Source of the DNA: Polyangiaceae bacterium | GTDB taxonomy: Bacteria > Myxococcota_A > Polyangia > Polyangiales > Polyangiaceae | Direction: 5' to 3' | Assembly: GCA_019637265.1 (NCBI GenBank) | Contig: JAHBVY010000011.1 | Location: 1 to 64,000, forward strand | DNA: 64,000 nt | In this document: positions 16,135 through 24,489 of the stretch, in pieces | Layout: every line of letters begins with the position of its first letter | How positions within the stretch are numbered: position 1 is the stretch's first letter | The notes under the pieces: generated by a model | What the model saw: only the letters and a program-made list of their open reading frames with translations | Databases searched by the model: none | Told to the model about the DNA's origin: nothing | Translations under genes and position numbers: made by a program

Positions 16135-16968
16135 TCAGGGCGACGTCGCGCCAGCCCGGCACGCGAAGGCGTGGTTCAGCGGGCCGTGTCCATTCCCGAA
16201 GCCGGGCGCGGCGAGCATCGCCTGGCGCACGTACTCGCGCGCGAGGCGCACCGCGTGGCTCAAGGTGTGCCCCTCCCCCAAGTTGGTGGCGATGGCCGAG
16301 GCCAAGGTGCAGCCGGTGCCATGGGTGGAGCGCGTGACGATGCGCTCGTCCTCGAACCACACCTGCTCCCCGTCCGCCGTGCGGAGCAGATCGCAAATGG
16401 TGTCGCCAGGCAGGTGCCCGCCCTTGATCAGCACCGCGCCCACGCCCGTCGTGAGCAGCGTGTCCGCCGCGCGCTCGAAGTCCTCACGACACTCGATGTG
16501 GACCCCGCTCAGCGCCTCCGCCTCGGGCAGATTCGGCGTGACCAGCGACGCGCGCGGGATGAGGTCCATCAAGAGCGCCCGCGCCACGTCGCTCTCCGCC
16601 AAGCGACCGCCGCTCGTGGCCACCAGCACCGGATCGACCACCAGGGGCACGCTGTGGCTGCCAAGGCTCGCCGCCACCGCCTTCACCGCGCCGCGTGTAG
16701 GCAGCATCCCTGTCTTGATCACGTCGGCGCCCAGATCGCTCAGCACCACCTCGATCTGCCGCTGGATGAGCCACGGCTCGATCGCCTCCACCTCCGCGAC
16801 CTCGCAGGTGTTCTGCGCCGTGATCGCGGTGATGGCCGTCATCGCGAAGCCCCCCAGCACGGTCACCGTCTTGATGTCCGCTTGGATCCCCGCGCCACCG
16901 CCCGAGTCGCTGCCCGCGATGATCAACACCCGGGGCGGCTTCGCCTCGTCATCCATGCTCACGCTCAT
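16135..16968 (-). CDS. thiD: Hydroxymethylpyrimidine (phosphate) kinase
   Basis: A 277-aa ribokinase-fold kinase: the N-terminal IAGSDSGGGAGIQAD loop binds HMP, VDPVLVATSG lies mid-protein, and HGTGCTLASAI near the C-terminus carries the anion hole and catalytic Cys typical of ThiD. It phosphorylates HMP and HMP-P to HMP-PP for thiamine synthesis. The start at 16968 has GAGGG 5 nt upstream; an upstream start would add 23 atypical residues. It is not next to other thiamine genes, and no TPP riboswitch is evident before it. Confidence 0.92.
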   Translation of the reverse strand: MSVSMDDEAKPPRVLIIAGSDSGGGAGIQADIKTVTVLGGFAMTAITAITAQNTCEVAEVEAIEPWLIQRQIEVVLSDLGADVIKTGMLPTRGAVKAVAASLGSHSVPLVVDPVLVATSGGRLAESDVARALLMDLIPRASLVTPNLPEAEALSGVHIECREDFERAADTLLTTGVGAVLIKGGHLPGDTICDLLRTADGEQVWFEDERIVTRSTHGTGCTLASAIATNLGEGHTLSHAVRLAREYVRQAMLAAPGFGNGHGPLNHAFACRAGATSP

Positions 16969-17092
16969 CTGACCCTCAGAGCAAAGCGAGCCGAGCGCCG
17001 CAAGGGGGATCTCGCGTGGCTCGGCACGCACCAGCACCGAACGGCGTCAGCGCCGATTGACCTGACCCGCGGCGCGAGATATCCCGCGGCCG

Positions 17093-17602
17093 ATGCGCGC
17101 TACCGGCTGGCTCTTCCTCGTCCCGTCCCTCCTGCTCGCCTGCGCCGGCAGTCCGCCGCCACCCGCCAACACGGCGGCGCCGGAGGTCACCGCGGAGGAG
17201 CTGACGGGGAAGCCAGGACACCTGACGCTCGGTCAGCTCAGCATGACCCACGGCGACAAGACCATCACCCTCCACCCCGACGGTCGCGTGGGGCTGATGG
17301 GCGGCGCTGAGCTCGGCACCCTCGAGCGCAGCGGGCGCTTCGTGAACGCGAGCGGGGAGGTGCTGGCCGAGTTGACGGAGGAGGGTGAGATCATGACGGG
17401 TGAGGACGACTACCTCCCGCTGCGCCTGAACCAGGACGGCGAGCTGCACGTCCTCGATCGGGATCAGCGGCTCCACATCCTGGAGGACGGGCGCCTCAGC
17501 GATCCATCCATGGAGGTGACCTTCACCGGCGTCACGCCCGAGACGCGGCGCGCCGCGATGTTCCTCTTGGTGATGGCTGCCTACCCCATCAGCTCCAGAT
17601 GA
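17093..17602 (+). CDS. Small lipoprotein
   Basis: A 169-aa protein with a short signal peptide and lipobox LLLAC (Cys17), a Pro-rich spacer, then a β-rich domain with repeated DGxxxLxxxG turns (HPDGRVGLMG, NASGEVLAEL, NQDGELHVL, LEDGRLSD). This looks like a small β-meander. It ends with a hydrophobic segment. It overlaps the following gene by ATGA and so is coupled to the DUF4105 protein. Likely a periplasmic partner. Family not recognised. Confidence 0.7.
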   Translation: MRATGWLFLVPSLLLACAGSPPPPANTAAPEVTAEELTGKPGHLTLGQLSMTHGDKTITLHPDGRVGLMGGAELGTLERSGRFVNASGEVLAELTEEGEIMTGEDDYLPLRLNQDGELHVLDRDQRLHILEDGRLSDPSMEVTFTGVTPETRRAAMFLLVMAAYPISSR

Positions 17603-19716
17603 AGCGGCTCGCGCTCGCGCTCTCACTGCTGCTCACGGCCTCAGCGCACACCGCGAGCGCCGCTCCTGAAGCGTCACCCGCCGCGGCTCCGAGTGACGCG
17701 GCTCCGAGTGACGCGACGCCGCGCGCTGCGAAGCCCCAACGCAAGCCGAACGCCAAGCGCCAAGCGGACGCCAAGCAGCGACCGAACGCCAAGCGCCAAG
17801 CAGGCGCCAAGAAGGCACGCGCGCCCGATCCTCACGCGAAGGGTCGCCAGGCGGCGGTGGAGGCGCTGGTGCGGCGCGCGAAGTCAGCCAAACTGGCTGA
17901 CGACTTGATGTGGCGCCGCCTGCTGCGCTACCGCGGCACCCTGTTCGGTGGTGTCCGCAGCGAGGCCGACGGCAAGCACTTCTTCTTGGCTGCGGACGGC
18001 AAGACGAACCCCGAGGCCGAGCTCGAGGCAACGCTGCGCGCCTTCTTCGACCCGCACTGGTCATCCCCCATCAGCGACCTGGAGCACCCCTACTGCCGCT
18101 TCCCGGCGCGGCTCGCCTGGCTCAACGCACGCCTCGGCTTCGACTTCAGCCAGCTGCCGCGCCGTGAGTGCCCCAGGTTCCAAGAGTTCGTCCTTCGCCT
18201 CGACGCGGACGCCCTGGTGCTGGTGTTCTCGTCCTATTACCTGAACAACCCCGCGAGCGCCTTCGGGCACACCTTCCTGCGCGTGAACAAGCGCCACCGG
18301 GGCGGCGCTCGAGGCGGCGTGGAGCTGCTCGACTATGGCATCGACTACGCCGCGATCGCCGACACCTCGAACGCGCTCATCTACGGCATCCGCGGGCTGA
18401 CAGGCCTCTTCCCCGGGGTGTTCAGTCAGATCCCGTATTACGTCAAGGTGCGCGAGTACAACGACTACGAGTCGCGCGACTTGTGGGAGTACGAGCTCGA
18501 CCTCTCCCGCGCCGAGCTCAGCATGGTGATCGCCCACCTGTGGGAGATGGGCTTCAACCACTTCGACTACTTCTACCTCAGCGAGAACTGCTCCTATCAC
18601 ATCTTGGGGCTGCTCGAGGTCGCGAGCCCGCGGCTGAACCTGCTGTCGCGCGTCGGTTGGCCCGTGATCCCGGCGGACACCGTCAAAGCAGCTTACCATC
18701 AACCAGGCCTGGTGCGCCGGGTGCACTACCGCCCCTCGAATCGCAGCCAGTTTCACGCGCGGCTCGACTCACTGACGAGCGATGAGCGCGACGTGCTCGC
18801 GCGCCTGATGGCAGACGCCAGCGCGCCATTCCCCGCGGAATATGACGAGGCGCGTCAGGCGAAGGTGCTCGACGTGGCGCTCGATCTGTTCGACTTCCAG
18901 CTCGCGCGCGACTTGGTGCGCGCGCCAGGCGAGGAGGGGGACCGCATCGGGGCGGAGCGCAAGCACCAGCTGCTGGAGCGGCGCGCGGCCTTGCTCATCG
19001 AGAGCGAGGAGCACGTCATGGATCCCCCGCTGAGCAAGATGCCGCATCGGGGCCACGGCTCCACCCGCCTCGGCCTGGGCTCGGGCTACCAAACCGAGCG
19101 CGGCTACCAACATCGCTTGAACCTACGGCTCGCGCTCCACGACCTCGCGGATCCAAGCGCCGGCTACCCCGATTTCGCCGCCATCGAGTTCTTACCGCTC
19201 GAGCTCCGCTATCAGGTGGAAAATCCCTCCGTTTCGCTCGAGCACCTGAGCCTGGTGAAGATCACCTCGCTGTCCCCGCTCGGGCGCTTTCAAGGCGGTT
19301 GGTCATGGGCCCTGAACGTCGGCGCGCGGCGGACTTACGACGCGGGCTGCGACGGCTGCCTCTCGGGCGTGCTCCAGTTCGGCGCGGGCTTCGCCGTGGC
19401 CCCGTTCGGCGACGCGCTGACGACCTGGGTGCTCGCGGACGCGCGGCTGCTCGCCCCGGTGGATCGCGACGGCTTGTTCGACTGGCTGCGCGCCGGCATC
19501 GGCCCCACGGGTGGGCTGCGCCTGCGCCTCACGGAGGACCTCGCGCTGCTCGGCGCGGGCGAGCTCAGCTACCTGCCGGCTCAAGAGCCGCACTTCACCT
19601 GGCGCGGGGACGGCACGCTGCGCTGGCAGTTGGTCAGGGATTTTGCCTTGAGCCTCGAGGGCAGCCTCTCCCCCGAGTCGCGGTCGGCCCACGCCATGAG
19701 CCTGATGTACTTCTAG
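17599..19716 (+). CDS. DUF4105 (Lnb N-terminal-like) envelope protein
   Basis: A 705-aa protein: a signal peptide (about 1-22), then a low-complexity Lys/Ala/Gln stretch with repeated PNAKRQA units (about 45-75), then the DUF4105 domain with FSSYYLNNPASAFGHTFLRV and later YFYLSENCSYHILGLLE, whose Asn-Cys is the conserved core. The C-terminal ~230 residues look like a β-barrel or β-rich module ending in aromatic MSLMYF, as outer-membrane proteins do. DUF4105 domains are related to the lipoprotein N-acyltransferase Lnb; enzymatic activity here is inference. Start overlaps the upstream lipoprotein stop. Confidence 0.75.
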   Translation: MKRLALALSLLLTASAHTASAAPEASPAAAPSDAAPSDATPRAAKPQRKPNAKRQADAKQRPNAKRQAGAKKARAPDPHAKGRQAAVEALVRRAKSAKLADDLMWRRLLRYRGTLFGGVRSEADGKHFFLAADGKTNPEAELEATLRAFFDPHWSSPISDLEHPYCRFPARLAWLNARLGFDFSQLPRRECPRFQEFVLRLDADALVLVFSSYYLNNPASAFGHTFLRVNKRHRGGARGGVELLDYGIDYAAIADTSNALIYGIRGLTGLFPGVFSQIPYYVKVREYNDYESRDLWEYELDLSRAELSMVIAHLWEMGFNHFDYFYLSENCSYHILGLLEVASPRLNLLSRVGWPVIPADTVKAAYHQPGLVRRVHYRPSNRSQFHARLDSLTSDERDVLARLMADASAPFPAEYDEARQAKVLDVALDLFDFQLARDLVRAPGEEGDRIGAERKHQLLERRAALLIESEEHVMDPPLSKMPHRGHGSTRLGLGSGYQTERGYQHRLNLRLALHDLADPSAGYPDFAAIEFLPLELRYQVENPSVSLEHLSLVKITSLSPLGRFQGGWSWALNVGARRTYDAGCDGCLSGVLQFGAGFAVAPFGDALTTWVLADARLLAPVDRDGLFDWLRAGIGPTGGLRLRLTEDLALLGAGELSYLPAQEPHFTWRGDGTLRWQLVRDFALSLEGSLSPESRSAHAMSLMYF

Positions 19717-19735: not shown

Positions 19736-19965
19736 GCCAGATCGTGAGGTACATTCACTATCTATGGTGCGGACCACAAAAAACGAACCGCGCCAATCCG
19801 AATCGTGAGGCGTACTCACTACCCAGGTGGCGCGGCTCGCCCACGCGGGCATCAGCCCGCCTGGATCGCCTGATACCGCGGCTCAGATGACGCTACGGCT
19901 CAGCTTACACTGCAGCTCAGCTTACAGTGCAGCTCAGCTTACAGTGCAGCTCAGATGATGTGAGT
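19736..19965. repeat. Direct and tandem repeats between convergent genes
   Basis: Two direct copies of a ~30-bp stretch beginning ATCGTGAGG (about 19741 and 19803), each holding a GTGA...TCAC palindrome. They are followed by five phased 17-bp units (19881-19897, 19898-19914, 19915-19931, 19932-19948, 19949-19965), the central ones GCTCAGCTTACAGTGCA. The last unit runs over the stop codon of the minus-strand DUF3015 gene. Confidence 0.6.
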
Positions 19966-20472
19966 GCAGGCGAGGGACTTGTCCTCCTTCAGCACCCGCA
20001 GCACGTTCTCGCTGATCTCGGCGTCGCTCGCGGCGGCGCTCGAGAACACCGTCTTGAACTGACGCTGCAGCGAGCGGCCCACGGCCTTGGCGCTCTTACA
20101 GCCCGCGACGCTCGTGAGCCCCGCGATGGTCGCGCCCTTGCCGCGCGCGGCGTCCTTGGCCAGCGCCGAGCGGTTCGTCTCCACGAACACCGCCGCGCTG
20201 CCGCCAGAGTAGCCGGAGCCATCGCAGTTGCTGGTGCCCGAGGTGATGCCGAACGTCTGAGTCCCTGACGTACCGTTGGTCGTCGCCGCGAAGATCTGCG
20301 TGATCTCGTTGCTGGGCTCGAACAAGAGGCTGCCGAGGCCACAGCCCGCGGAGCCATACCCCGAGCTCTTGCGGAGGCCCGCGCTCTCCTCGAACGAATC
20401 ATCCGTCTCGGCCACTGCCTGTGACGTCAGGCACAGCAGCGCCGCACCCACCAATGCTCCAAGCTTACGCAT
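19951..20472 (-). CDS. DUF3015 family secreted protein
   Basis: A 173-aa protein with a clear signal peptide (MRKLGALVGAALLCLTSQAVA), then the DUF3015 hallmark YGSAGCGLGSLLF, QIFAATTNGTSGTQTFGITSGTSNC and a helical second half ending ...LACTHII. Periplasmic or outer-membrane associated, function unknown. The start at 20472 is supported by the signal peptide and AGGTGG 8 nt upstream; an upstream start would place charged residues before it. The 3' end is overlapped by a 17-bp tandem array. Confidence 0.85.
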   Translation of the reverse strand: MRKLGALVGAALLCLTSQAVAETDDSFEESAGLRKSSGYGSAGCGLGSLLFEPSNEITQIFAATTNGTSGTQTFGITSGTSNCDGSGYSGGSAAVFVETNRSALAKDAARGKGATIAGLTSVAGCKSAKAVGRSLQRQFKTVFSSAAASDAEISENVLRVLKEDKSLACTHII

Positions 20473-20555
20473 CCTAGAAACCACCTTTCGTGAGCGAGCC
20501 CAACGCCCGCGCGGCGAGGCTAGCGCCTCCACCCTCGCCCCGTCAACCCAAGCCG

Positions 20556-22226
20556 TCAGTCGAGCGTCATAGGCCTCCTGAAGGGCGGTGGGCGCCTCGG
20601 GCGCACCCAGCCGAGCATCGCCTCCACGCCCAGGCGCCGCCCGGTCAGCTTCACGAGCTTCTCATCACCGCCCTGGCTCATTCCCACAGAGAAAATATGA
20701 TCGCGCAGCAGGGCGCTGGCTGAGCGCCCGTCACCCGACGCGGTGCTCGCGGCGTACGTCAGCGAGCCTGACGCCAGGCCCTGCGCCGCTCGGCCAGAGG
20801 TCGCACCCCGAGCACCAGGCGTCGCATCCTGCGACTGCTTGGCACCCGTCTTACCTGGGTGACTCGCCGGTCGATTTTTTTGGGGGTTCGCCCCCACCGC
20901 GAGCACCTCGAGGATCTGCGTGCCGACGAGCGCGCCGAGCGCTTCGCACTGGGAGACGAGCGGCGCGCGGAGCAGGCGCGGGTGCTCCGTCCACAGCAAC
21001 ATGCCGTCGACGCCCGTGAGGCGCCGGTGCAAGCCGGCCGCGGTGCGCACCAGATCTTGCTGAGGGTTCTGCAGCGCGCGCTCTTCGAAGGCCGCCCAAG
21101 CGACGTGACGGCGCGCCTCGAACAGCGCGCGGGCGCGCGCGTTCGCCGCGGCGCGCTCAGCGTCGCGGGGGGACAGCCCCAGGCGCTCCTTCAGCACCTG
21201 GGAGTCGGCGAGCAGCGCGGTGAACGCGAAGGCGACGCCCGCATCGAACGCCGGCTCACTCAGGCCCAGCGCGCCGGGGTAGCCCTGCAACAGTGGGTCC
21301 GTTTCACTGACGGAGTCGCGCAGCGCCGCGGCGGAGAGCTCACGCAGCGCCGCCTCGTAGCCGGCGCGCCCGGCGACCGAGGGCGCCTGGGGCACCGCCG
21401 CGAGCGGCAGCTCGAGATCGCGCGCCACGCCTTGGACGAAGGGCGGGAGCCGCTCGGCGGGGAACCAGGGAGCGGGGCTCGAGGTCGCGCGCTCGAGCAG
21501 CCAGTCGGCGTGCTCCGCCGCCAGGCGCGGGGGGCGCGCCGCGACCCTCATGCGATGCACGAGCGCCTGGAGCTCTCGCTCAGTGCCACGAACGAAGCGC
21601 TGGGTCAGGCCGCGGGTGCGCTCACCCGGCAGGTGGCGGAGCCTCATCAGCGCGCGGAAGGTGTCCTCACCCAGCTCGCGCGCCGCGACGCGACGGCGCA
21701 ACAAGAGCCGCGTGGTCAGCGGCGCCACGGCTTCATGGCGCGTCAGCCGCGACTGCCACGCGGCGTCTCGCAGCTTGGCGTCGGGTGAGGTGACGAGCTC
21801 CGTCAGTTGAGCTGTCGTGAGCGGCTCCCCATCGAGCACCGCTTGGGAGCGCTCGCGGATCGCCTCGGTGAGCGCGCGAGTCTCGGCGTCGGACTCGAGG
21901 CGCGCGCCGAGCGCGCCGAGCTGCCACAACAGCCGCCGCCGCGGGGTGAGCAGCGCCTCGTGGTACTCGAGCAGCCGCTCCGCCTCGAACAGCACCCGCG
22001 CGACCTCCTGATGAGCCGCGGCGCGCGCCGCCTCGGGAGCGTCGCCCGCCTCGAGCGCCGAGTAGCGGAGCCAGAGGCGACGGTGCTCATAGGCTAGCTC
22101 CGTGAGCTGCCGCCGCGCGGCGGCGCGCGAAGGCACCGCCTCGAAGCGCTCCTCGGGCGCGCGCACCACGCAGCCACACGGCGCCACCGCGAGCAGCCCC
22201 AAGAGCGCGCGGCGGCTGCACCTCAC
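20556..22226 (-). CDS. Peptidase M2-like lipoprotein lacking the zinc motif
   Basis: A 556-aa helical lipoprotein (lipobox near Cys17-Cys19). The region RDAAWQSRLTRHEA ... LLLRRRVAARELG resembles the AW...LvxLRNxxAxxLG helices of peptidyl-dipeptidase A-type (M2) enzymes. GYPGALGLSEPAFDAGVAFAF resembles the segment around their third zinc ligand. Where HExGH should be, the protein reads RELSAAAL (around Glu296), and no HExxH exists anywhere. So it is probably a catalytically dead peptidase fold, or a distant relative. The C-terminus adds a Ser/Ala/Gly-rich tail with a basic end. GTG start overlaps the previous stop (GTGA). Confidence 0.6.
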   Translation of the reverse strand: MRCSRRALLGLLAVAPCGCVVRAPEERFEAVPSRAAARRQLTELAYEHRRLWLRYSALEAGDAPEAARAAAHQEVARVLFEAERLLEYHEALLTPRRRLLWQLGALGARLESDAETRALTEAIRERSQAVLDGEPLTTAQLTELVTSPDAKLRDAAWQSRLTRHEAVAPLTTRLLLRRRVAARELGEDTFRALMRLRHLPGERTRGLTQRFVRGTERELQALVHRMRVAARPPRLAAEHADWLLERATSSPAPWFPAERLPPFVQGVARDLELPLAAVPQAPSVAGRAGYEAALRELSAAALRDSVSETDPLLQGYPGALGLSEPAFDAGVAFAFTALLADSQVLKERLGLSPRDAERAAANARARALFEARRHVAWAAFEERALQNPQQDLVRTAAGLHRRLTGVDGMLLWTEHPRLLRAPLVSQCEALGALVGTQILEVLAVGANPQKNRPASHPGKTGAKQSQDATPGARGATSGRAAQGLASGSLTYAASTASGDGRSASALLRDHIFSVGMSQGGDEKLVKLTGRRLGVEAMLGWVRPRRPPPFRRPMTLD

Positions 22227-22687
22227 GGCAGCGCTCCGCAGCTCGGCGGGCGCCCCGCCGTGCCCCGACCGCAGCGCACCGGGCCGTGACAGGTATAGCG
22301 CCCATCGTCACAGCTCAGGGTGCAGCTGAGCGCGCACCACTCCGCCTCCTCCTCACCTCCGACGTCGCTCCCGTCGCCCCCTGCGTCACCACGCCCCTCC
22401 GATGGCTCGGCGCCCGCCTCGGCGTCGCCCCAGTCACTCGCGTCACCCGAGCCCGCGTCATCCAGCTGATCCGCGTCACCCGAGCCGGCATCTGACGGTG
22501 CCTCATCGCCCAGCACGCAGAGCGTGGCGCGCGCCTCACCGCACGGCGCGCCGGGGTACGGCCGGTGCGGCGGCGGCCCGGCGTCGCGCGCAGAGCTGGG
22601 CTCCTCCTCCAGGTCGATCGGGATCGCCGACTGCACGATCTCGCAGCCGACCAGCGCGCTCAGCAAGCCAATGGATAGCCAGCGCAC
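22223..22687 (-). CDS. Asp/Gly-rich Cys-containing lipoprotein
   Basis: A 154-aa lipoprotein: short signal peptide with lipobox ALVGC, then an acidic low-complexity region of Asp-Ala-Gly-Ser-Gly-Asp repeats, then a compact Cys-rich end (six Cys in the last 45 residues, probably three disulfides). The GTG at 22687 directly follows the stop of the GTPase gene (TGA, 1 nt, GTG), and its own stop overlaps the start of the peptidase-like lipoprotein, so all three are coupled. Function unknown. Confidence 0.65.
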   Translation of the reverse strand: MRWLSIGLLSALVGCEIVQSAIPIDLEEEPSSARDAGPPPHRPYPGAPCGEARATLCVLGDEAPSDAGSGDADQLDDAGSGDASDWGDAEAGAEPSEGRGDAGGDGSDVGGEEEAEWCALSCTLSCDDGRYTCHGPVRCGRGTAGRPPSCGALP

Positions 22688-22688
22688 C

Positions 22689-23999
22689 TCAACCCCGCGC
22701 GCGCTTCTTGAGGGAGAGCCGCGGCTTCGCCGCCGACTTCGCAGGCTTCGCGGCGGGCTTCGCCGCCAAGCCACGATTCGTACGAACCACTGACTTGGCC
22801 GTGGGCTTCGCCGCGCGCGCTCTCGGTGACGGGGAGCCGTCTGTCGCACGGCCGCCTGTCGTACGGCCAGCTGACTTGGCCGCCGCGCGCCGCGCTTCGG
22901 CGCGCGCGGCGCCTCGGTCCCGCGCGTGATCGCGCGGCGGGGGCGGCGGTAACACCAGCCGCTTCTCGTCCGGCACGTCCAAGCTCACGCCGCCAAGCTG
23001 CCCGCTGCGCAAATCCGTGAGGAAAATACGCGCGGCCTTGGTCAGGTCCACCTCACCGCCGCGCACCAGGCAGCCCCGCGCGCGGCCCAGCGCCACCAGC
23101 AGCAGGTGGGTGTCCACCGAGCGCTGCCGCTCGAGGGCGCCGACGACGTCGAACACCCCGAGCGGCGCTGCCCCAACCCCCAAAACCCCTGGATCCCCAA
23201 GCGAATGACTGGGCGGGAGCTCCCCGCTCGACCCACCCGAGGCGCCCTCGCTCGGCTCGGCCCCGCGGGCCTCCCACACGCCGTCGCCCGCCGCCTTGCC
23301 CTGACTCGGCGCCTCACCACGCAGCGCCGCTTCGATGAGCGGCCCGTAGCGCTCCACCAAGCGCGCTGGGTAGCGCTGCGCGAGCAGCCCCAGGCCGTAG
23401 CGCGCGACGCTCTCCACCTCGAGGGTGATCTCCTTGATGGCGCCGCTCAGCGCGAGCCGGGTCGCGGCCTCTTGATCGTCGAGCCGCGGCCACAGCACGC
23501 CGGGCGTGTCCACCACCGAGAGATCGTCCGTCGCCTCACTGCGCTGCGTGCGCTGGGTCACCGCCGGGCGGTTCTCCACCTTCGCGACCTTGCGGCGCAC
23601 CAGGCTGTTCAACAGCGTGCTCTTGCCCACGTTCGGGATCCCGACCACCAGCGCCGACGTGGGGCGGCCCGGGCGGCGCCTTGGCAAGGCAACCTGACGA
23701 CACAGACCGAGCAGCCGCGCCGCGTCCGCCTGGCGGCTCGCCACCAGCGCGACGGCGGCCTGACCGCGCCGCGCGTAGTGCTGAAGCCAGGCGTCGGTCA
23801 CCGCGGGATCAGCCAAATCTGCCTTGGCCAACACCCGCACCACGGGTGCTCGTGAGGTGAGCTGACCAAGCATGGGGTTGTGACTCGAGCGCGGCAACCG
23901 GGCGTCGAGCACCTCGATCACCACGTCCGTCTGGCGCATGGCCTCGCGGATCTCCCGACGGGCCTTGTTCATGTGCCCGGGGAACCAGTTGATGCGCAT
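22689..23999 (-). CDS. RbgA/YlqF-like ribosome biogenesis GTPase
   Basis: A circularly permuted GTPase: the family opening NWFPGHMNKAR (3-13), the G4 region VRVLAKADLA (54-63), G1 GIPNVGKST (120-128) and G3 DTPG (164-167). In most relatives G4 reads NKxD; here it is AKAD. RbgA helps mature the 50S subunit. The usual ~290-aa core is followed by a Gly/Ser insertion (about 255-285) and a long Lys/Ala/Arg tail (about 365-436). The insertion DNA contains the dispersed CCAACCCCCAAAACCCC motif. The ATG at 23999 gives the family N-terminus. It heads a three-gene coupled operon with two lipoproteins. Confidence 0.85.
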   Translation of the reverse strand: MRINWFPGHMNKARREIREAMRQTDVVIEVLDARLPRSSHNPMLGQLTSRAPVVRVLAKADLADPAVTDAWLQHYARRGQAAVALVASRQADAARLLGLCRQVALPRRRPGRPTSALVVGIPNVGKSTLLNSLVRRKVAKVENRPAVTQRTQRSEATDDLSVVDTPGVLWPRLDDQEAATRLALSGAIKEITLEVESVARYGLGLLAQRYPARLVERYGPLIEAALRGEAPSQGKAAGDGVWEARGAEPSEGASGGSSGELPPSHSLGDPGVLGVGAAPLGVFDVVGALERQRSVDTHLLLVALGRARGCLVRGGEVDLTKAARIFLTDLRSGQLGGVSLDVPDEKRLVLPPPPPRDHARDRGAARAEARRAAAKSAGRTTGGRATDGSPSPRARAAKPTAKSVVRTNRGLAAKPAAKPAKSAAKPRLSLKKRARG

Positions 24000-24084: not shown

Positions 24085-24489
24085 TCAGTGGAGCAGCGGC
24101 GCCAGGCTCTCGCAGCGCTCGGGCCACGCGCGCTTCGCTTGCGTGGGCCTCCGCCCGAGCCAGCCGGCGAGGCGGATCCGCTCGTCCAAGCTCAGGCCCT
24201 GGAACGCGACCGCCATCCCCAACGCCATCGCGCCCGCGACGCACCGCCGCTCGGCCCGCTGCACCTCACCAAAAATCTGCAGCTCACCGCCGCGCCAGCT
24301 GATGCCCGGCTGCACGCACACCACCAGCTCCTCCCCCACCGAGAGCGGCTCCGGCGTCTCGATCCACGCGCCCGTGCGGCTCAGATCGAGCGCCCACCCC
24401 AGCTCCGGCGCCTCACTGTGGCCCGCGATCAGCCCACACGGCAGCTCCACCGCGCGACGCGCCCCGCGCCGCCATCCTCGGTCCTTCAC
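24085..24489 (-). CDS. PilZ-domain protein
   Basis: A 134-aa single-domain protein with RRAVELPCGL at the N-terminus (the RxxxR-like start of PilZ domains is partly kept as RRGARR), the core DLSRTGAWIETPEPLSVGEELVV and GMAVAFQGLS near the end. PilZ domains bind cyclic di-GMP or serve as adaptors. GTG start with AGGAGGT about 6 nt upstream. No neighbouring diguanylate cyclase, so its target is unknown. Confidence 0.75.
   Translation of the reverse strand: MKDRGWRRGARRAVELPCGLIAGHSEAPELGWALDLSRTGAWIETPEPLSVGEELVVCVQPGISWRGGELQIFGEVQRAERRCVAGAMALGMAVAFQGLSLDERIRLAGWLGRRPTQAKRAWPERCESLAPLLH

Follow-up and report, generated by a model that had tools for sequence, protein, structure and literature searches.

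The part of the analyzed window between positions 20556 and 23999 (the window is the whole stretch of 64,000 nucleotides, from genome G000) carries three co-directional genes on the reverse strand: rbgA/ylqF, the gene of a small acidic Cys-rich lipoprotein and the gene of a 556-aa protein (Table 1). The positions and the common direction of the three genes were found as the original prediction had given them. The same prediction stated that the genes were joined by stop-start overlaps. We observed an overlap at the junction of the small gene and the 556-aa gene, which have the four bases GTGA in common, while between rbgA and the small gene a single base separates the stop TGA from the start GTG, which makes a 1-base gap rather than an overlap.

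Such tight spacing is common in the window: 7 out of 32 same-strand neighbor pairs were separated by 5 bp or less according to a simple gene caller, which itself places the start of the small gene too late. The promoter scan produced no promoter. Two terminator-like sites were found, both inside genes, compared to 0.9 expected by chance, and none was situated at the rbgA/small gene or the small gene/556-aa gene junction. It is plausible that rbgA and the lipoprotein genes are located on one transcript, as the spacing fits; this would mean co-expression, not joint function. On the opposite strand, between the 556-aa gene and thiD, positions 17599-19716 encode a 705-aa protein in which the domains Lnb_N, DUF7840 and DUF7843 were recognized.

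Table 1. Genes and sites at the locus and around it (coordinates in the window).
Feature	Position	Strand	Evidence or remark
thiD	16135..17037	-	PF08543, 288.3 bits
DUF3015 gene, downstream of the 556-aa gene	19951..20472	-	PF11220, 140.6 bits, scored on the longer frame 19951-20532; ATG start chosen by eye
556-aa protein, probable lipoprotein of an M2/M32/M3-type group, catalytic site lost	20556..22226	-	Alignment with site-keeping relatives; structural matches of the AlphaFold model in the PDB
Former third zinc ligand Glu, now Ala329	21240..21242	-	Alignment A6, column E370 of L015; both PF01401 rows have Glu here
Former HExxH site, residues 295-299, now RELSA	21330..21344	-	Relatives have HELGH/HEIGH/HEFGH in the same alignment columns
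Small acidic Cys-rich lipoprotein, 154 aa	22223..22687	-	9 Cys; lipobox LVGC
rbgA/ylqF, ribosome biogenesis GTPase, 436 aa	22689..23999	-	TIGR03596, 275.7 bits, cut-off 208.2
PilZ-domain gene, upstream of rbgA	24085..24489	-	PF07238, 25.1 bits, cut-off 22.5

The first gene was correctly described as coding for an RbgA-like GTPase, as its TIGR03596 score is well above the cut-off. Its product matched the B. subtilis RbgA (1puj) with an E-value of 4.6e-58 and has its GTPase motifs in the same permuted order. The window protein differs from the B. subtilis one in the G4 motif (AKAD instead of NKAD), in a long insertion before the C-terminal part and in a basic tail rich in K, R and A. The G4 motif deviates from NKxD in two other genomes as well, being AKSD in G001, a genome of the same genus, and SKSD in G019. 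The Asn of G4 normally contacts guanine. Judging from the sequences, the change might alter the nucleotide specificity of the enzyme. Among the 183 genomes of the order, 57 have an rbgA gene over the TIGR03596 cut-off.

For the second gene, the description as an acidic Cys lipoprotein was borne out by 29 Asp and Glu residues compared to 9 Lys and Arg, by the nine cysteines and by the lipobox, found by eye at residues 12-15. Searches of Pfam, NCBIfam and PHROGs with this protein gave no family over the cut-off. The protein is present in only two of the 183 genomes of the order, the window genome and G001. Neither the small protein nor the rbgA product contains HExxH.

The 556-aa protein had been called M2-like. 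The sequence of the window protein did not yield this assignment by Pfam or NCBIfam: the single Pfam match, to PF07631 with E 0.035, was below the cut-off, there was no NCBIfam match, and neither PF01401 (Peptidase_M2) nor PF02074 (Peptidase_M32) was listed with E-values up to 10 requested (the filters drop most matches above 0.1). Nothing convincing appeared in PHROGs, and a phmmer search of PDB sequences gave a weak match to an oligopeptidase (E 0.9). The assignment did emerge from the relatives of the protein and from structure prediction, as described below. Members of the group mostly stay under the Pfam cut-offs; of seven full-length members, each scanned singly, one passes (the member of G036, with M32, 31.7 vs 25.1 bits), while NCBIfam matched none of the eight rows of alignment A1. 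The group is an unnamed one of M2/M32/M3 type, for which the copies of Pfam and NCBIfam searched contain no dedicated model.

The N-terminal lipobox of the 556-aa protein reads PCG followed by C and is atypical at position -3. Its Cys is aligned in all nine rows of alignment A6, which comprises seven members of the 556-aa protein group and two PF01401 proteins. The 556-aa protein is probably lipid-anchored, although a lipobox of this atypical form does not prove it.

The AlphaFold model of the window protein, built from six sequences that included site-keeping relatives, had a pLDDT of 71.3 and a pTM of 0.74; the predicted structure is a two-lobed, mostly helical cleft fold. In Foldseek, the model matched M32 carboxypeptidases and ACE, with the M32 carboxypeptidase 5e3x as the best match (E 3.0e-5). 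Superposition on ACE2 (7fc3_A) gave a Z-score of 26.4 and an rmsd of 3.6 with 467 of the 556 residues aligned. The model of a site-keeping relative (pLDDT 82.2, pTM 0.84) matched the same families, with the best E-value 5.4e-11 and the best Z-score 26.3. A predicted fold shared over nearly the whole chain with M2 (ACE), M32 (carboxypeptidase Taq) and M3 (oligopeptidases) supports, by prediction, the ACE-type fold that had been expected. In a comparison of profiles, five site-keeping members matched two PF01401 proteins with 99.6% probability over 502 columns.

The 556-aa protein or its relatives were found in 7 of 59 genomes, the window genome included. A profile search over the 183 genomes of the order produced matches at E 0.001 or better in 39 genomes. 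Nine of these have close members of the group, with E-values of 4.7e-145 or better (G000, G001, G007, G014, G019, G022, G036, G115 and G116); two matches, in G016 (1.8e-40) and G131 (6.7e-32), were proteins over the PF01401 cut-off, and the remaining 28 genomes had distant matches with E-values of 1.6e-10 or weaker. A draw of 377 genomes from the phylum gave 28 genomes at E 1e-20 or better. Five of them were already known, and one, G347 from another order, added a close member (E 1.2e-108), while the 22 others (E 1e-20 to 4e-36) are outside the counts of close members given here. A scan of genome contigs with the window protein as a query gave no relative; with an alignment of five site-keeping relatives as a query, the scan gave five loci. 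The records of five members are metagenome-assembled genomes labeled Polyangiaceae, Polyangia or Myxococcales. Assembly completeness was 77% for G036, 81% for G019 and 82% for G001, the latter being fragmented and having 7% contamination. In G115 (L062:8474-12508), the lipoprotein and thiD are both spread over several frames, which may be due to assembly errors with indels or to frameshifts. Among the literature matches listed, titles and abstract openings did not describe this lipoprotein group.

With respect to the zinc site, the close members fall into two kinds. HExxH is kept in 7 of the 10 genomes with close members (G007, G014, G022, G036, G115, G116 and G347); the site-keeping members carry the motifs HE[LIFT]GH, EGxAE and YPxYxQ[SN]Y. 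They have HExxH, a downstream Glu and a PxYxxxY region in common with the two PF01401 proteins. The copies of the window, G001 and G019 lack HExxH. We found no HExxH anywhere in the 556-aa protein of the window, as had been stated originally, and no HxxxH either. In the columns of the zinc site that read H, E, H, E in the site-keeping members, the window copy has R, E, A, A, the G001 copy A, E, R, R and the G019 copy R, A, H, D, with the third zinc ligand replaced by Ala, Arg and Asp, respectively. Two tyrosines, Y469 and Y473, are present in all four site-keeping rows of the group and in both PF01401 rows of A6 and are lost in the same three copies. Next to the site, a stretch of about 25 residues (counted by eye in the alignments) is missing from the window copy; in the model of the site-keeping relative, this stretch holds the strands 297-302, 308-314 and 317-322, which are absent from the window model.

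We see, therefore, homology to peptidases with an intact site combined with the loss of catalytic residues, the combination by which a pseudopeptidase is recognized; the zinc site of the active gluzincin peptidases of M2, M32 and M3 is lacking in the window protein. The earlier view of the protein as catalytically dead appears right on these sequence comparisons, given the loss of HExxH, of the third ligand, of two tyrosines and of about 25 residues and the presence of the site in relatives. Since G347, which belongs to another order, has an intact site, the loss is probably the derived state. Although the best tree needs two changes, a tree with a single loss common to the window genome, G001 and G019 could not be rejected (p-AU 0.111); therefore, we do not claim two separate losses.

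The possibility that has to be weighed most seriously against a protein with a present role is decay under relaxed selection, in which the 556-aa gene would be a relict of a peptidase gene, without present function, left open by chance or because the loss is recent. Several active-site positions have been lost, as such decay would have it, and the constraint on the gene is weak. Between the window and G001, identity is 41% for the 556-aa protein compared to 61% for RbgA and 72% for a partial ThiD. For these two genomes, the 556-aa gene has dN 0.68 and dS 1.18, a value near saturation, and the ratio is 0.57, higher than for the small gene (0.42) and for rbgA (0.24); with dS above 1 for all three genes, these ratios are rough. 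For the lipoproteins of G014 and G116, a pair with an intact site, dN/dS is 0.18. The end branches of the window and G001 copies are 0.94 and 0.82 and that of G019 is 1.11, compared to 0.08-0.66 for the intact-site rows of the group. On the other hand, in spite of a divergence to 41% identity, both congeners have full open frames of 552-556 codons with the base composition by codon position typical of coding sequence, while base-shuffled copies of the window gene contained 8.2 stops on average and were open in 1 of 2000 trials. These observations fit a constraint that is relaxed yet not absent, and we regard pure decay as rather doubtful, though worth keeping in mind.

The location of the 556-aa gene beside rbgA is a separate matter. 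The original prediction had a cytoplasmic ribosome factor coupled to two envelope lipoproteins, and this coupling did not hold up across genomes: rbgA adjoins a lipoprotein gene of the 556-aa type only in the window, i.e. in one of the three genomes holding both. In both others, G001 and G019, the genes lie in separate units, an outcome that the original prediction had itself named as refuting. In G001, rbgA is on contig C561 behind a PilZ gene and is followed by a convergent gene, and both lipoproteins are on contig C806, in the order AMP-ligase gene, small gene, MATE gene and 556-aa homolog. In G019, rbgA is on C365, again followed by a convergent gene, and C483 carries the lipoprotein. The pair of PilZ and rbgA is kept in G001, the PilZ homolog upstream of rbgA (in L029) having 51.5% identity.

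The usual neighbor of the lipoprotein is thiD: of the 8 genomes that could be judged, 7 have it nearby on the same strand (the count leaves out G019, where only 0.3 kb of contig follows the lipoprotein). In G014 and G116, thiD directly adjoins the lipoprotein gene; in G007 and G115, the distance is at most about 0.9 kb, and in G036, one kinase gene lies in between. The distance is about 1.1 kb in G001 and 3.5 kb in the window; the exception is G022, with no thiD in the 18 kb covered. Other genes of the lipoprotein neighborhoods of G014, G007 and G036 have homologs elsewhere in the window. In a search of five other genomes, the MATE gene of G001 had its best homolog (56%) in G007, on the same contig as the G007 lipoprotein piece, while its best match in the window genome was at 32%; the AMP-ligase matched the window genome at best with 33% over most of its length. 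As these two G001 genes have no close homolog in the window genome, the gene order of the window is probably derived. The location of the 556-aa gene next to rbgA thus seems to stem from a rearrangement at this locus and not from a partnership conserved among relatives.

Other genomes showed still other neighbors. In G019 (L018:10985-14022), the degenerate lipoprotein gene is behind a class II (D/K/N) tRNA synthetase gene and overlaps its end by one base; the neighbor is again a housekeeping gene, differing from that of the window. The intact-site lipoprotein of G022 (L013:5071-9140) is directly upstream of a hypC-type gene and apparent hydrogenase maturation genes, of which the Pfam check covered HypC only. 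In G347 (L115:2384-3757), the gene just upstream of the lipoprotein resembles by eye an M20-type peptidase.

A real operon, in which expression of rbgA would set the level of two envelope lipoproteins and so tie growth to the envelope, could be read from the 1-bp gap, the 4-bp overlap and the lack of a terminator-like site at either junction. In addition, among the nine genomes of the order holding a 556-aa-type lipoprotein, three have rbgA over the cut-off, and these are the three with dead copies (G000, G001 and G019), compared to none of the six with intact copies (G007, G014, G022, G036, G115 and G116; G036 is only 77% complete). However, G001 and G019 have these genes apart, closely spaced genes are frequent in the window, and the match of dead copies and rbgA, which comes from at most two lineages and in part from incomplete assemblies, may be due to chance; as a meaningful link we have set it aside. 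We consider such an operon very unlikely. That the protein is an enzyme using an altered metal site or a different chemistry is scarcely credible, as the two His, the third ligand, the two conserved tyrosines and the strand segment have all been lost and no HxxxH is present, even though the window and G001 copies retain the Glu of HExxH.

Altogether, the 556-aa protein is most likely a decatalyzed member of the unnamed M2/M32/M3-type group, paired with a small lipoprotein specific to the genus. We think it probable that it is an exported pseudopeptidase with at most a binding or scaffold role, which came to lie beside rbgA through rearrangement in its lineage. Its predicted two-lobed helical cleft is that of the ACE, M32 and M3 peptidases, and its ancestors would have been zinc peptidases. 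With three zinc ligands, two conserved tyrosines and about 25 residues lost, the protein presumably no longer cuts peptides. By analogy with known pseudoenzymes, its present role would be at most that of a binding or scaffold protein of the envelope, perhaps acting together with the small Cys-rich lipoprotein of the same genus, while the position behind rbgA would have been acquired in the lineage of the window.

Pseudopeptidases of metallopeptidase families are described in the abstract of a review (PMC11266112) as having roles in protein interaction, regulation and scaffolding. The 556-aa protein resembles them in being an inactive homolog of an active family. Unlike it, those in the headings of the review belong mainly to M12 and M14, with a single section for other families, and a term search of its text gave no match to 'M2 family', 'M32' or 'M3 family'.

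A stronger version of the same idea is that the 556-aa protein and the small Cys-rich lipoprotein form an obligate envelope pair in the genus, in which the empty cleft would bind the acidic segment of the partner or a peptide ligand, making the protein a receptor or scaffold; at present, this is unlikely. Titles and abstract openings among the literature matches listed contained no description of a dead ACE-type peptidase serving as an envelope receptor or scaffold in bacteria. The window genome has one M2 and one M3 peptidase with HExxH elsewhere, so these families are not missing from the cell. Regulation of these active peptidases by the 556-aa protein is possible for this reason, but nothing ties them to it.

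The analysis of this locus brings to light a group of proteins of ACE-type fold, probably lipoproteins, in bacteria labeled Polyangiaceae, Polyangia or Myxococcales. The tight gene spacing observed in one genome proved to be a poor guide to function and calls for caution. Since members with and without the zinc site share their genomic place in part, the cost and the use of losing the site can be compared directly within the group.
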